Positions 15,887 to 21,361 of a stretch of 22,132 bases of DNA are shown here, one piece after another. The DNA comes from a virus. The notes beneath the pieces were generated by a model that saw only the letters and a program-made list of their open reading frames with translations, was not told the DNA's origin and made no database searches. The DNA lies in the IMG/VR virus record IMGVR_UViG_3300046467_001677, positions 1-22,132 of that record; one strand, written 5' to 3'. The translations under genes were made by a program, and so were the position numbers. Numbering within the stretch: the stretch's first letter is position 1; every line of letters begins with the position of its first letter.

Positions 15887-16465
15887 ATGGCTGAAAGATT
15901 ATTTGACAGATTAGAACGAGAAGCATTTAGAGCGGGGGTACAAGCCCGTACTCAAGAATCTATGGCTTGGTTCAGGAATAGGGTTAGTAATCTTAGGGTT
16001 TCACGCGTAGGACTTTTAGCTCAAGGGCCAGAAAGAGCTAGACATCAATATGGAAGGATGTATAATTTTCAATATGATCCTAAATTTAAGACATCATTAC
16101 CATATTATGACAGATTTCCTTTATGTATTCCTATACAGAGAGCAAAGGGTGGATTTCATGGTATGAATTTACATTACTTACATCCTGTGATCAGAGCTCA
16201 ATTCTTAGATGCATTAATGGATTTTTCAAGTGATCAAAGATATGACATAGGAACAAAAATGAGATTAACTTATAACATGCTTAAAGGTAGTGCAAAATTA
16301 AAATGGTTTAAACCATGTTTCAAACATTATTTAAGTAGTCATATTCAATCTCCATTATTATTAATTCAACCCGCTGATTGGGAAATAGCAATATTTCTAC
16401 CAACTGATTCATTTAGAAAAGTTGACGCCAGTTCAGTTTGGGGCCAAAGTAGGAAAATCGTATGA
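15887..16465 (+). CDS. Conserved-looking T4-like phage protein of unknown function (192 aa)
   Basis: I cannot assign a T4 gene. The protein is soluble, basic and aromatic: 'MAERLFDRLEREAFRAGV' (a charged helix), 'GRMYNFQYDPKFKTSLPYYD' then 'RFPLCIPIQRAKGGFHGMNL' and 'HYLHPVIRAQFLDALMDF', and 'KLKWFKPCFKHYLSSHIQSP' then 'LLLIQPADWEIAIFLPTDSF'. The well-formed 'YDPK---LPYYD-FPL--P' and 'W-P--W--A-FLPT--F' blocks look like a compact conserved domain. No TM, signal peptide or nuclease motif was found. Its stop overlaps the start of the tube-like gene (ATGA), so translation is coupled. Position between gp4 and tail-tube genes suggests a neck, tail-completion or hub role; this is inference. Confidence 0.7.
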   Translation: MAERLFDRLEREAFRAGVQARTQESMAWFRNRVSNLRVSRVGLLAQGPERARHQYGRMYNFQYDPKFKTSLPYYDRFPLCIPIQRAKGGFHGMNLHYLHPVIRAQFLDALMDFSSDQRYDIGTKMRLTYNMLKGSAKLKWFKPCFKHYLSSHIQSPLLLIQPADWEIAIFLPTDSFRKVDASSVWGQSRKIV

Positions 16466-17073
16466 AACTAAGTAGATTTATGTCCCATATAGACAGTATG
16501 GCTAGACAAAATAGATTTGAAGTTGAAATCTTTATGCCAAATCTCGGTATAAGAATACGAGGTATGCGAGTTTCAAAGGCCGCAATGCCGGGTAGAAAAA
16601 TTACTACAGAATCATATAGTGAAATTCCTGGTGGACCTGCTCGTAAATATCCTCAAAAAGTTGAATACGACCAAGAGATTACAATAACATTTCTTAGTGA
16701 CAATACTCTTGTTGACAGACAAGCCATAGAAACTTGGATGGAATATATGTATAATGGAGAGTATGCAATGAAGTATCCCTATGCTGATAATGGATATACG
16801 GGAACTGTTGTTTTAAGACAATTAGATAGAAGTGACGCGGCCATATATGAAGTAGAATTAATTGATGCTTTCCCAGAAACATTATCAGGATTCTCATTAG
16901 ATACAAGTTCATCAGCAATACAAACTTTTGATGTAACTTTCGGGTATAGAACTTGGAAATCATCATATGAAAATGAACCTGCAAACAGTATTCTTGGAGC
17001 TCTATTCAAGAAAGTAGGTAAAAAGATTAAAGGGAAGGTTAGAAAAAAGACCGAAGATTTCTTTTTTGATTAA
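16462..17073 (+). CDS. 54: Tail-tube-fold protein (gp19 family; probable gp54 tube initiator)
   Basis: 203 aa with the T4 gp19 tube pattern: 'QNRFEVEIFMPNLGIRIRGM' then 'RVSKAAMPGRKITT', 'GPARKYPQKVEYDQEITITF' then 'LSDNTLVDRQAIETWMEYMY', 'YPYADNGYTGTVVLRQLD', 'YEVELIDAFPETLSGFSLDT' then 'SSSAIQTFDVTFGYRTWKSS'. These blocks (F-V-i-mP, lPGR, fl-D---------W, G-----QLD, a-P-------d-s------F-V-f-YR-W) are those of contractile-tail tube subunits. It could be the main tube (gp19) or the gp54 baseplate-tube initiator. Neighbouring baseplate genes and a Lys-rich C-terminal tail (KKVGKKIKGKVRKK), like the Lys-rich N-terminus of the gp48-like protein, favour gp54. T4 gp54 is longer (320 aa). The start overlaps the upstream stop. 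Confidence 0.7.
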   Translation: MKLSRFMSHIDSMARQNRFEVEIFMPNLGIRIRGMRVSKAAMPGRKITTESYSEIPGGPARKYPQKVEYDQEITITFLSDNTLVDRQAIETWMEYMYNGEYAMKYPYADNGYTGTVVLRQLDRSDAAIYEVELIDAFPETLSGFSLDTSSSAIQTFDVTFGYRTWKSSYENEPANSILGALFKKVGKKIKGKVRKKTEDFFFD

Positions 17074-17100: not shown

Positions 17101-17133
17101 ATGATTATATTATAAAAATGAGGAAATAATATT

Positions 17134-17841
17134 ATGGGATTACCAATACTTGAAACCCCGATGCACAGTTGTGTATTACCATCTTCAAACGAAAGAGTAG
17201 AATTTAGACCTTTCTTAGTTGGAGAACAAAAGATTTTGATGATTGCTCAAGAAAGTGATGATCAAAATACACAAGTCAAAGAAATGATTAGATTGATTAA
17301 TGTTTGTTGTGATGATATTACAGCAGAGAAGCTTCCTACAATAGATTTAGAATATTTGTTTCTACAAATAAGAATAAAATCTGTTGGAGAAACTTCAGAT
17401 ATTAGTATGAAATGTAGTAAATGTGAAACGGAAAATAATTTTACAGTAGACTTAGAAACAGCTAAAGTTAAACGAGAGAAAGAAGTATCTAATATAGTTA
17501 AACTAACTAATGATATATCTATAGAATTACAATTTGCAAATTATGAAGCAATGAAAGGTTTAGATATAACTACAGATGATACTAATACTGTAGAAGCTTT
17601 TAAATTGATGGAAAGATGTATTGTTGCAGTTATCCAAGGTGAAGAAGTTTTCACTACAGATGATTTTACAGAAAAAGAATTAACAAAATTCATGGATTCT
17701 ATGTCTCTTGAAATGTTTGACGGTGTACAAAAATATTTAGGAAGTGCTCCAGTTCTATCAATAGTGACTGAGTATAAATGTAAGACTTGTGAAAGTCAAG
17801 AAACTGTTAAATTAGAGGGCATAGGAAATTTTTTCGACTAG
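17134..17841 (+). CDS. 26: Baseplate hub / tail assembly protein gp26-like
   Basis: 235 aa (T4 gp26 is 208). The family acts in hub and tape-measure assembly in T4-like phages. The pattern 'MGLPILETPMHSCVLPSSNE' with 'RVEFRPFLVGEQKILMIAQE' is the typical opening (P-------lPs--k-v-frPf-v-ekk-lliA-e). Two CxxC pairs, C94/C97 (KCSKCETE) and C216/C219 (CKTCESQE), could bind zinc. The ATG has GAGGAA 8 bases upstream. The last codons are GGA AAT TTT TTC GAC TAG, giving the slippery heptamer A AAT TTT; the -1 frame continues open for 66 codons into the next ORF. Position two blocks upstream of the tape measure matches tail-chaperone genes of other phages. Confidence 0.82.
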   Translation: MGLPILETPMHSCVLPSSNERVEFRPFLVGEQKILMIAQESDDQNTQVKEMIRLINVCCDDITAEKLPTIDLEYLFLQIRIKSVGETSDISMKCSKCETENNFTVDLETAKVKREKEVSNIVKLTNDISIELQFANYEAMKGLDITTDDTNTVEAFKLMERCIVAVIQGEEVFTTDDFTEKELTKFMDSMSLEMFDGVQKYLGSAPVLSIVTEYKCKTCESQETVKLEGIGNFFD

Positions 17842-17949
17842 CCCTCTCACATGATAACTTATATAATTTTACACACACTAATTTTGGATTAATGCAACAT
17901 CATAAATATAGTTTAACAGAACTATATAATATGATACCTTGGGAGAGGG
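17824..17949 (+). other. Candidate -1 programmed frameshift signal at the gp26 stop
   Basis: The heptamer A AAT TTT is in the gp26 reading frame at 17826-17832, 6 bases before the TAG. A 9-base spacer follows. CCCTCTC (17842-17848) can then pair perfectly with GAGAGGG (17943-17949); an 8-bp hairpin, ATATAGTT-TAACAG-AACTATAT (17906-17927), folds inside that loop. A slip here would make a protein of about 299 residues (233 from gp26 plus 66). The elements are seen in the sequence; frameshifting is inferred from the lambda G/GT and P2 E/E+E' precedents. Confidence 0.55.
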
Positions 17950-18032
17950 AAGTCTACGTTCAACTGTTAATGAAATGGTTGGAAGAAGAAGAAGCTCGGC
18001 ATAAAGCTGCCGAAGCTAAAATGAAAACTTAG
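17892..18032 (+). CDS. Short ORF in -1 frame of gp26: tail assembly chaperone extension (gp51-position)
   Basis: From its own ATG this encodes 46 aa, 'MQHHKYSLTELYNMIPWERE' then 'VYVQLLMKWLEEEEARHKAA', a helical acidic segment with an 'E(L/M)---MIP-ER-VY---L---L' pattern like the T-type segments of tail assembly chaperones. The ATG has no Shine-Dalgarno site, and its frame stays open upstream through the end of gp26 (17811-17891), encoding LALSHDNLYNFTHTNFGL just before it. It may therefore be made only as a gp26 fusion through -1 frameshifting. A separate 46-aa protein, reached by re-initiation, is the alternative. In T4 the small gene after 26 is 51; no identity to T4 gp51 could be established. 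Confidence 0.6.
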   Translation: MQHHKYSLTELYNMIPWEREVYVQLLMKWLEEEEARHKAAEAKMKT

Positions 18033-18043
18033 AGGAAATAAAA

Positions 18044-18421
18044 ATGGCAGAAGAAATAAGAGAAGCTTATAATGTACGGAATCAAGTACAAATTGATTTA
18101 GTAGAATATGAAGCTAAGAATGCACAGATAGGGGCACTCAAAGATCAAATACAAAAGATGAAGGATGCCGCAGGGCCTAATAAAATGGGTTGGATGTGGT
18201 TAGCTCCTGAATATTTTTCTAGATGGAGAATATTCCCAAGAGCATTTATTACAATGTATATCTATTTACTGTTCACATCAGCTGATTGGTTCATGGCATT
18301 AGCCGATCCATCAGTAGCACAGTCTGGACTAATCTCAGTATTAGTCGGAGCAGGTGCAGCATGGTTTGGTTTGTATGTTAATTCAACATCAACTCAACAT
18401 GAAGTAGTAGCTAAAGATTAA
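18044..18421 (+). CDS. Two-TM inner-membrane protein with N-terminal coiled coil (holin-like size)
   Basis: 125 aa. Residues about 5-42 are a charged helix/coiled coil (IREAYNVRNQVQIDLVEYEA). An amphipathic segment, 'MGWMWLAPEYFSRWRIFPRA', is followed by TM1 (about 66-84, 'FITMYIYLLFTSADWFMALA') and TM2 (about 93-111, 'GLISVLVGAGAAWFGLYVNS'), with a short polar tail. The 'GAGAAWFGLYVNS' ending of TM2 looks like a conserved element of phage membrane proteins. Size and topology would fit a class II-type holin, but no lysozyme lies next to it, so the role is open. AGAGG lies 7 bases before the ATG. Its stop overlaps the start of the outer-membrane gene (TAATG), so the two are translationally coupled. 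Confidence 0.7.
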   Translation: MAEEIREAYNVRNQVQIDLVEYEAKNAQIGALKDQIQKMKDAAGPNKMGWMWLAPEYFSRWRIFPRAFITMYIYLLFTSADWFMALADPSVAQSGLISVLVGAGAAWFGLYVNSTSTQHEVVAKD

Positions 18422-19122
18422 TGAAACATAAAATTATAGAATTCCTTTTATCGGGAGCAGTATATGTTATTGGTGTAGTTGCCATTGGACTAATATTGTT
18501 TTGGCCTCAGATAGTCGGTGCATCTGGTCAAGCTGACTTCGGTGGTAAACTTGATGATGGTGATCTATCTATTAATACAAGTATAGATTATAGTTGGCCA
18601 GCTGGAAAATTTGAAAGAGATATTGAATTTGATTATCGTTATAAAGAACTTGATGAACTCAAAGATACAAACAAAGGTTTAATAGCATTCAAACAAAGAT
18701 ACGAATTCAAACCAAAACATTATACATTTGGATTAGTCAGATATGATTATAATGAATTCAGACCTATTACTCATAGACGCCAAGTTAATGTGGGTTGGGG
18801 ATATAAACTTATCAGAAGTGAAAAGATTAAAATGAGTAATGAGTTTGCTGTAGGTTATTTAAATTCAAAAATGGGTACATCCTCTAATTCAGTAAATGAA
18901 ATTCTTTTTAGAAACAGTCTTTGGTTCTTTTATAAAGTAGCACCCAAATTAAATCTTACAAATAAGTTTCTTTATGAAGCTTCTAATGTTCCGTTGATCA
19001 GAAACGAAACAGCATTCAATTATCTACTAACAGATAAAATTAGAATCAGTCTTAAAAATGTTTATACAGAAGATCCACACAATAAGAATTACTTATCCTT
19101 TAATGTAGGGTACACCTTTTAG
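18421..19122 (+). CDS. Phage-encoded outer-membrane beta-barrel, DUF481 (YdiY) type
   Basis: 233 aa. The N-terminus is a signal peptide: 'MKHKIIEFLLSGAVYVIGVV' plus a hydrophobic stretch to residue 28, then 'VGASG-QADF', a plausible signal peptidase I site after residue 36. The mature part is alternating strands with aromatic girdles: 'LSINTSIDYSWPAGKFERDI', 'GLIAFKQRYEFKPKHYTFGL', 'VRYDYNEFRPITHRRQVNVG', 'WGYKLIRSEKIKMSNEFAVG'. The '(Y)TFGLVRYDYNEF...HRRQVNVGWGYKLI--EK-K---E-AVGY' layout is that of DUF481, the salt-induced outer-membrane protein family. It ends 'LSFNVGYTF', with the terminal aromatic residue read by the BAM complex. It is not a known T4 gene. Host-derived acquisition is likely; codon use looks like the neighbours, so it is not very recent. 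Confidence 0.8.
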   Translation: MKHKIIEFLLSGAVYVIGVVAIGLILFWPQIVGASGQADFGGKLDDGDLSINTSIDYSWPAGKFERDIEFDYRYKELDELKDTNKGLIAFKQRYEFKPKHYTFGLVRYDYNEFRPITHRRQVNVGWGYKLIRSEKIKMSNEFAVGYLNSKMGTSSNSVNEILFRNSLWFFYKVAPKLNLTNKFLYEASNVPLIRNETAFNYLLTDKIRISLKNVYTEDPHNKNYLSFNVGYTF

Positions 19123-19130
19123 GAAACACT

Positions 19131-19541
19131 ATGCCAGAGATAGTACTTAGTCAATTTTATATAGAGTTCATAGGATTTGTTCTTACTCTTATTGTAGCAT
19201 TAGCTATGAGAGATTGGGCTACATCTTTTATTAAAGGAATGAAGTTCAAAATGAACAAAGCCTTTACAGAAGGAGACAAAGTTATTCTTGATGGGTGTCC
19301 TGCTCTGATAGTAAAGATCGGTATGAGTGAAACAGTCTTTGGTGTTTATGGTAAAGAAGGATACACATGGAGATATGTACCTAATGAAAGAATTGCCTTT
19401 CTTAAATTAGAAAAGATTGTTGATCCTGACTTACATAGAGATAGTGATGAAGAAAAAGCTCAAAAAATAATCGACCAAATTCAAACTTCTAACATAAATA
19501 CTAATAGTAAGGAAATCGAAAAAATTAAAAACGGTAAATAA
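19131..19541 (+). CDS. Minimal MscS-like membrane protein (one TM plus beta domain)
   Basis: 136 aa. One TM helix (about 9-27, 'FYIEFIGFVLTLIVALAM') leads straight into 'RDWATSFIKGMKFKMNKAFT' and 'EGDKVILDGCPALIVKIGMS', then 'ETVFGVYGKEGYTWRYVPNE' and 'RIAFLKLEKI'. This aligns well with TM3 plus the beta domain of MscS-family channels (E. coli: '[20 protein letters not shown]' then 'RPFRAGEYVDLGG', later 'VIPNGKII'), including F45-x-E-G48-D and the PN turn at 84-85. TM1, TM2 and most of the C-terminal cytoplasmic vestibule are missing; instead there is a charged helix (105-135). Gly spacing in TM3 is reduced and the helix carries extra Lys. AGGAAAC is 4 bases before the ATG, which follows the barrel gene by 8 bases. 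Confidence 0.72.
   Translation: MPEIVLSQFYIEFIGFVLTLIVALAMRDWATSFIKGMKFKMNKAFTEGDKVILDGCPALIVKIGMSETVFGVYGKEGYTWRYVPNERIAFLKLEKIVDPDLHRDSDEEKAQKIIDQIQTSNINTNSKEIEKIKNGK
19493..19500 (+). promoter_or_regulatory. Late promoter-like box (CATAAATA) ahead of the tape measure gene
   Basis: CATAAATA inside the 3' end of the MscS-like gene, 43 bases before the tape-measure ATG. One mismatch from consensus and inside coding sequence, so chance is possible in AT-rich DNA. Confidence 0.35.
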
Positions 19542-19543
19542 TA

Positions 19544-21361
19544 ATGGCTAAAGAAATTACAGGCAAAGAACAATATGACCAAATATCAGAATTGATATCG
19601 GCAGTTGAAGAACAAGGTACGACAGGATCTGCAAAAGAAAGAGCTGCGAATTTGAAAAAAACTTTAGATAATCAAAAGGAATTATTAAAAGTTTTTGAAG
19701 GTGGTATTCCTGCGAATTTAGGTGCTGCAGATCAAAAAGCTATAATGCAAGCTGTACAAGGTGCAGGCATTGAAATAACCGACAAAGATGAAGATAGAAG
19801 TATAGAAACAGAAAGATTTCTTTTAGATGTAGCTTTTAAAGCTAAGAAAGAACGATTAACTGAAGCGAGAGAAAAGGCCAGACAAGATAAGGACTTAACT
19901 AAACAGGCTGGTCTACATATGCAGGGTTTGTGGATGGATGCCACTAATTCAATTACAAGTGGTATTCTTGATTTAAAAGAATGGGTTGCAGGAGCTACTG
20001 ATATTGGTAATATGAAAAATGCACTCTCTCAAGATTTTCAAATGTTGACAATGGGATTTAGTGAACTCATGAATATACCAGGAATGAAAACTATGGTGGC
20101 TGGGATTAAATATATAGCAGGTTGGATCGGGAGAAGTCTTGCGCCAATAATCCATGCATGGTATAAAGGCTTAGTAACGGATAGGATAAAGAGGAAAGTA
20201 GCTAAAGAGGCTGGGACTTATCATAATATCTTTCAACGGATGGGATTATTCTTCAAAAAGTCTAAGAAAATTGAAGACCTGGCAGAAGCGAAGCCAACAT
20301 CATCGGCCGTCAAGATGAAAAGAATGGTAGCCGGAGATATATATCCACCCAAAGATTCTAAACAACAAATCTTTGACTTCAAAGAAAAGCCTTTAGAGAG
20401 TGGAGGCAAAGATAGTACTCTGACTAAGATCGGAAATTCATTCAAAAAGATGGGAACACATTTGAATAAACGTCTTATACCATTAAAAAAATCTTTTAAT
20501 AATTTCTTCACAGAAAAAGACGGGAGGGGATTCACCAAAGCAACAAAAGCTTTTAGAAAAGGTCAAGCCGCTTACAAAATAGGTCTCAGAAAAATGACCC
20601 GTGGTTTCAAAGACTTTGGTAAAAATCTTAAAAGATCAGCAAAACATCTAGCCGCAAGAGCATTAGGATTTATAGTCAATATAGGTATATTTTTAGCTGG
20701 TATGGTAATGCTCATAGCAGGTTTCATAATGGCAAACTTACCCATAATAGCTCTCGTAGCATTAATAGTTTTACTAGTAATTGGGTTAGTTATATTATTT
20801 AAGAAACTTAGTGAAAGTTGGGAAACGATAAAAGTAAAAATGGCTATGGCAATGGATAGATTAAAACTAGTAGGTACAAAAATAATCAACTGGTTTAAAG
20901 ACGCTGGTGCCGATATTGGATATCGGATAAGACAACTGATTGCTAAAATTAAAGACGGTCTTGTCTGGATAATAAATGCGGCACTTGAGGCATTCGCGAA
21001 GATGATGCCTGATGGACCTTTAGGTAGAAGAGCGAAGAAGAAAATAAGAGCTTTCAAAATGGAAGAAGGTGCAGCATCAGCTAAAGTTGACGCTGATCGT
21101 AGTGCTCAATTAGCTGCAAGAGAATTACGCGACAAACAACTTGAAGCTGACTTTGAAGCTAAATATGCTGAGAGAGGAAAACAATTAGAAGACGCAGCTA
21201 AAAAAGATGCTGATAGAAAAGCTGAAAAAGATGCTGATAGAAAGACAGAGGTTAATACAACTGCCGTTGTTACTACGAATGAAGCCTCAAGTAATCTATA
21301 TACCCAAGGAACAGGTCAGACTGATTTTGCAACTCTACAAGCCATACAGGCACGTGGATAA
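19544..21361 (+). CDS. 29: Tail tape measure protein, gp29-like
   Basis: 605 aa, close to T4 gp29 (590). Tape measures sit in the tube lumen, set tail length and leave during DNA ejection. By the usual 0.15 nm per residue the tail would be about 90 nm; this is inference. Residues 1-150 are charged helices ('KEITGKEQYDQISELISAVE', 'ERLTEAREKARQDKDLTKQA'). The middle is strongly basic ('KKMGTHLNKRLIPLKKSFNN', 'GLRKMTRGFKDFGKNLKRSA'). Residues about 373-422 form two adjacent TM-like helices ('IVNIGIFLAGMVMLIAGFIM' and 'IIALVALIVLLVIGLVILF'), the usual tape-measure membrane segment, followed by amphipathic helices. A coiled, acidic/basic C-terminal tail (510-575) ends in a short polar segment. 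The start has only a weak GGTAA upstream. It follows the chaperone-like gp26 region, the standard tail-gene order apart from the envelope insertion. Confidence 0.82.
   Translation: MAKEITGKEQYDQISELISAVEEQGTTGSAKERAANLKKTLDNQKELLKVFEGGIPANLGAADQKAIMQAVQGAGIEITDKDEDRSIETERFLLDVAFKAKKERLTEAREKARQDKDLTKQAGLHMQGLWMDATNSITSGILDLKEWVAGATDIGNMKNALSQDFQMLTMGFSELMNIPGMKTMVAGIKYIAGWIGRSLAPIIHAWYKGLVTDRIKRKVAKEAGTYHNIFQRMGLFFKKSKKIEDLAEAKPTSSAVKMKRMVAGDIYPPKDSKQQIFDFKEKPLESGGKDSTLTKIGNSFKKMGTHLNKRLIPLKKSFNNFFTEKDGRGFTKATKAFRKGQAAYKIGLRKMTRGFKDFGKNLKRSAKHLAARALGFIVNIGIFLAGMVMLIAGFIMANLPIIALVALIVLLVIGLVILFKKLSESWETIKVKMAMAMDRLKLVGTKIINWFKDAGADIGYRIRQLIAKIKDGLVWIINAALEAFAKMMPDGPLGRRAKKKIRAFKMEEGAASAKVDADRSAQLAARELRDKQLEADFEAKYAERGKQLEDAAKKDADRKAEKDADRKTEVNTTAVVTTNEASSNLYTQGTGQTDFATLQAIQARG

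Follow-up and report, generated by a model that had tools for sequence, protein, structure and literature searches.

Does the gene 26 homologue of this marine T4-like phage end at its own stop codon, or do some ribosomes carry its product on into the -1 frame? The window analysed here is a 22,132-base virus record, in which the 3' end of the gp26 frame reads GGA AAT TTT TTC GAC TAG and the -1 frame, already open before this site is reached, stays so as far as 18032. A preliminary description had proposed a -1 ribosomal frameshift at A AAT TTT, fusing gp26 to a chaperone-like segment in a protein of about 299 residues. That heptamer is indeed present in frame at 17826-17832, the -1 frame does run to 18032 (65 codons past the slip and a TAG), and the predicted fusion has 299 amino acids (234 + 65). 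The same product, ...GIGNFFRLALSHD..., would result from slippage at either of the two overlapping heptamers listed in Table 1. Among the genes of the window, gp26 alone combines an in-frame X_XXY_YYZ less than 60 nt from its stop with a -1 frame that is open across the site and for more than 60 codons. By codon sampling, the chance of a heptamer so near the gp26 stop is about 2.8%; the decisive evidence for the putative slip site is its conservation across relatives.

Table 1. Features of the gene 26 locus, numbered from the first base of the window.
Feature	Position	Strand	Remarks
Shine-Dalgarno GAGGAAA of gp26	17120-17126	+	sequence
gp26-like ORF, short chaperone isoform (TAC-N)	17134-17841	+	235 aa; PF12322 E=1.5e-50, phrog_150 E=1.6e-55
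Heptamer A AAT TTT, overlapping T TTT TTC	17826-17832	+	in 15/81 loci
Conserved -1 slip site, slippery heptamer T TTT TTC	17829-17835	+	T6N in frame across relatives
-1 frame extension (TAC-C, 'gp51' domain)	17835-18032	+	65 codons + stop TAG 18030-18032
0-frame stop TAG	17839-17841	+	3 nt past heptamer; same distance in 70/81 loci
5' arm CCCTCTC, putative long-range stimulatory stem	17842-17848	+	covariation with 3' arm; 6-nt spacer from heptamer
Internal ATG, -1 frame, usual annotated gp51 start	17892-17894	+	no Shine-Dalgarno; judged not to be a real start
3' arm GAGAGGG, putative stem	17943-17949	+	RNAalifold consensus, 43 loci; shuffle/slide pair counts; 94-nt loop between arms

The short form belongs to the T4 gp26 family (PF12322/phrog_150; hhalign probability with T4 gp26 of 99.2). 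Its AlphaFold2 model has a pLDDT of 91.8 and matches viral gp26-like models. No significant match to the model was found among solved structures; the HK97 chaperone (gp13) 2ob9 ranked 34th (E=1.8, target TM 0.39), which is not significant.

Conservation of the slip site

The main comparison set comprised 80 uncultured-virus loci and the window, 81 in all, and was collected with a query that began at the FF residues of the extension. In all 81 loci there is an in-frame run of six T followed by C (63 loci), A (11) or T (7), and the 0-frame stop lies 0-24 nt past this heptamer, exactly 3 nt past it in 70. The downstream ORF is in the -1 frame in every relative compared. A further 117 of 118 distinct loci keep T6N, bringing the heptamer in the right frame to 198 of 199 loci, most of which come from one collection and all of which are related in sequence. 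Because the query for the 81 loci started at the FF residues, the search was also made with gp26 alone; xxT TTT TTC and a -1 ORF were present in 17/17 of the loci found in that way. The T6 heptamer is kept as well in cultured cyanophages, Pelagibacter phage Mosig, Vibrio phages KVP40 and D479, Cronobacter phage S13 and Stenotrophomonas phage Mendera, and in Rhizobium phage AF3 the slip site is TTTTTTG. It is this comparison that fixes the site, its frame and the conserved fused reading.

The proposal of a -1 slippery heptamer at the end of gp26 thus stands, but its location has to be moved. A AAT TTT is present in just 15/81 loci, against 81/81 for T6N, and was rejected as the main slip site, though it may add to slipping at T TTT TTC. 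The run consists of exactly six T in 74 of the 81 loci, and the first two codons of the -1 frame are TTT TTT in every one. Elsewhere phenylalanine is encoded by 119 TTT and 16 TTC codons in the extension, and by 597 TTT and 228 TTC codons in gp26; the T run is therefore kept beyond what codon preference would give.

The heptamer rule is not universal, because a gp26 relative in Vibrio phage VAP7 (Ackermannviridae; L019 2489-3417) has no T6 heptamer and its next ORF starts at an overlapping TAATG. Coupling may take the place of shifting in that phage. A distant gp26 relative in another locus (L003, 3001-3863) carries A AAT TTT TTC, followed by an unrelated and longer -1 extension which opens with the GC-rich stretch GGCGCCGCC and is possibly a different chaperone tail.

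The -1 extension and its start

From its residue 2 onwards, the -1 peptide is similar to phrog_634 ('baseplate hub assembly catalyst', gp51; E=1.2e-25). It also matches the C-terminus of the gp26 family profile phrog_150 (E=5e-7), and therefore some members of the family evidently hold both parts in one chain. When the peptide was compared with the DNA of phage records 596 matched, usually from its first or second residue. Conservation begins at the slip site, upstream of the usual ATG, with FF, L6, L11 and NF invariant in an 11-member alignment. The AlphaFold2 model of the extension is all helix and of low confidence (pLDDT 71.7), and it has no significant match.

In relatives the gp51 segment is often annotated from an ATG further in, and many genomes list it in this way as a small gene of its own. 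Such a gene would be translated from that ATG, perhaps by ribosomes that restart after ending gp26 close by. The overlap of the ATG with the gp26 stop (TAATG or TGATG) in KVP40, AF3, Mendera and VAP7 would suit such a gene. However, an SD-like site precedes the first -1-frame ATG in only 2 of the 81 loci (79 are without one), compared with 55 of 74 for the gp26 ATG. The position of that first ATG wanders between residues 3 and 34, yet the stretch before it is conserved. An independent gp51 would also leave the T6 heptamer kept for no reason, and T4 gp51 is an unbroken fusion. An own-start gp51 gene was rejected on the missing SD-like sites and the variable ATG, and we consider it very unlikely. 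The preliminary description had already remarked that the ATG at 17892 lacks a ribosome site, and none is seen there, as opposed to the GAGGAAA before gp26. It had also named beforehand what would speak against a frameshift, namely relatives with the downstream ORF in other frames, or with a ribosome site of its own and no slippery sequence; the relatives gave an ORF always in the -1 frame, a retained T6 heptamer and the few SD-like sites just mentioned, an outcome that favours the frameshift.

On the frameshift reading, the stand-alone gp51 annotated in hundreds of marine and cyanobacterial T4-like genomes would really be the tail of a fusion. Cyanophage gp51 has been described as having only about 20% of the length seen in other T4-like phages, without the first 200 or so residues (Sullivan et al. 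2010, PMC3037559), and frameshift fusion would account for that shortness.

A long-range RNA stem past the slip site

Over 90 loci, the 125 nt following the heptamer fold more stably than controls with synonymous codons, with a mean z of -2.33 as against -0.51 to -1.32 for stretches within gp26. In the window itself the post-slip fold is not exceptional and its stability is not decisive there, because the end of gp26 folds well too (z -3.08 versus -2.55). In a gapless alignment of 92 loci, pairs 14/119 and 17/116 were the top two out of 990 covariations between codon third positions, and they lie on one antiparallel diagonal. Both belong to a 7-bp stem, which in the window would pair 17842-17848 with 17943-17949 after a spacer of 6 nt and around a loop of 94 nt. 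A 6-nt spacing is the usual distance of a stimulatory stem.

Pair 17/116 was tabulated in 43 loci with matching Leu-Ser codons, giving C-G in 19, T-A in 18, C-A in 1, T-G in none and other combinations in 5; this subset was chosen partly by the stem positions, so that evidence can be drawn from no more than the two variable third positions. The RNAalifold consensus of the 43 loci finds the stem unprompted. Shuffle and slide controls favoured it on the cells paired and on the covariation score, but not on the number of covarying pairs. Tree-independent changes at the two pairs were 3:0 and 5:0, few but one-sided. Among 117 new loci the same pairs again ranked first and second (Fisher p 7.5e-9 and 1.4e-7, kinship ignored), whereas shifted pairs gave p of 0.14-1.

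The long-range stem is absent in many relatives (FRHDN, MAHE and cyanophage types), and a stem common to all of them was rejected, several clades being without it. Five loci that are without it (L074, L094, L025, L044 and L098) have strong local hairpins past the slip site, which suggests that frameshift stimulators turn over. In the clade that has it, the 7-bp stem is likely to act as a frameshift stimulator, judging from the covariation. No description of a downstream long-range stem was found in the literature searched, to which the paper of Vladimirov et al. (2022) did not belong, and a conserved stem just past the slip site looks undescribed. We lean towards the fuller statement that this marine clade uses a conserved long-range RNA stem, so far undescribed, to stimulate frameshifting; the stem has 7 bp, begins 6 nt after U UUU UUC and encloses about 94 nt of coding sequence. 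Synonymous changes would preserve it by covarying at two places, the Leu/Ala codons that directly follow the slip site and the Glu-Arg codons within the conserved PWER motif; in other clades it has apparently given way to local hairpins or been lost. It offers a concrete, testable candidate for a stimulator of phage chaperone frameshifting.

The stem also bears on whether the two frames might be joined before translation, by RNA polymerase slipping on the T6 run to give edited transcripts. The site is a run of T and the joined frame would be identical. But the run keeps a fixed phase to the codons, and the covarying stem stands at ribosomal spacing. A run of six T, the exact length in 74 of the 81 loci, is moreover short for programmed transcriptional slippage. 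We regard this as a highly improbable source of the fusion, and ribosomal frameshifting as the preferred one. A gene split by mutation or sequencing error, with the short form as the only product, has nothing in its favour beyond the absence of an assay and is already contradicted by conservation, since the same layout recurs in about 200 distinct uncultured-virus loci as well as in cultured cyanophages, Mosig, KVP40 and others, and its probability is negligible.

Comparison with known chaperone systems

The T4 genes 26 and 51 lie on opposite strands and both products belong to PF12322, but only gp51 carries the phrog_634 tail. As in the window there are short and long forms of a PF12322 protein, with the same C-terminal domain in gp51; unlike the window, these are two separate genes and there is no frameshift. 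The gp51 sequence, VFKLLVNPDEIFTF..., runs unbroken through the position where the marine phages shift frame. Aligned by hhalign, the -1 extension and the C-terminal part of T4 gp51 gave E=1.6e-4 over 45 columns, with a probability of only 50.6. In an unrooted tree the 26-type and 51-type proteins of T4 separate into one group each, and all the frameshift-type proteins fall on the 26 side. This fits a duplication by which the T4 group would have come to separate the short form from the long one. Vladimirov, Gautam and Davidson reportedly found that frameshifting is kept in several T4-like groups, whereas in the T4 group genes 26 and 51 serve instead.

The tail assembly chaperone genes of T4-like phages (TAC-N/TAC-NC) and their frameshift signals were identified by Vladimirov, Gautam and Davidson (2022, Virology 566:9-15); the protein family, gp26/gp51, is the one seen here, and outside the T4 group a poly-T -1 frameshift close to the 3' end of TAC-N is likewise proposed. 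Two later papers cite that work for T4-like phages with separate short and long genes (PRFect, PMC10885494) and for poly-T slip signals in T4-like TAC-N genes (PMC12846349). The chaperone and frameshift reading is thus prior art, published for several T4-like groups (Vladimirov et al. 2022); the present window differs from the published systems in coming from an uncultured phage.

Lambda G/GT likewise consists of a short form and a minor -1 frameshift extension; in lambda the pair lies between tail tube and tape measure. P2 E/E+E' also shifts to the -1 frame close to where the upstream gene stops, and the tape measure gene follows immediately. A profile comparison (hhalign) of the extension with P2 E' gave no relation (probability 1.5%), and kinship of the two was rejected. 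That gp26 and gp51 form a G/GT-type pair, as had been suggested for this lineage, is supported by T4 gp51 being an in-frame fusion and agrees with the published work of Vladimirov et al. (2022).

Proposed mechanism

Taken as a whole, we think it very probable that the locus encodes a T4-like TAC-N/TAC-NC pair, made by -1 frameshifting at T TTT TTC. Most ribosomes would end at the TAG at 17841 and give the 235-aa short form (TAC-N, gp26). On a minority, tRNA-Phe on UUU (P site) and on UUC (A site) of U UUU UUC would move back one base, both tRNAs being able to re-pair in the -1 frame, and translation would go on to 18032. In E. coli, heptamers of the form H_HH.U_UU.Y belong to the efficient motifs (PMC4066793). 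The slipped ribosomes would yield the 299-aa long form (TAC-NC), bearing the helical domain annotated as gp51 in relatives. The stem, starting 6 nt past the heptamer, probably makes the ribosome stall and thereby determines the ratio of the two forms. Ratio and function are taken by analogy from lambda G/GT (reviewed in PMC5009743): the short and long forms would coat the tape measure and bring in subunits of the tail tube. The slipping itself, the ratio, the part played by the stem and the chaperone activity are inferred.

Neighbouring genes

A tail-tube family gene (phrog_45, 16462-17073) lies directly upstream of gp26. The preliminary description had placed the pair just upstream of the tape measure. 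The window does not bear this out: three genes separate the chaperone from the tape measure candidate (19544-21361). That is a 605-aa protein with hydrophobic helices, a candidate by position, with no detectable relatives among 50,697 phage records; a comparison with the long ORF that follows gp51 in phage Mosig showed no relationship either. The intervening region (18044-19541) holds three small ORFs, putative membrane-protein genes of which two are apparently membrane-bound. The remaining one (18421-19122) encodes a DUF481 outer-membrane barrel-like protein without a match in the 50,697 phage records. The first two of the three are also carried by one relative (L021). The C-terminal half (phrog_10198) of the 18044-18421 product has matches among the proteins of 355 phage records, for the most part from Vibrio phages; the KVP40 match is about 129 kb away from gene 26.
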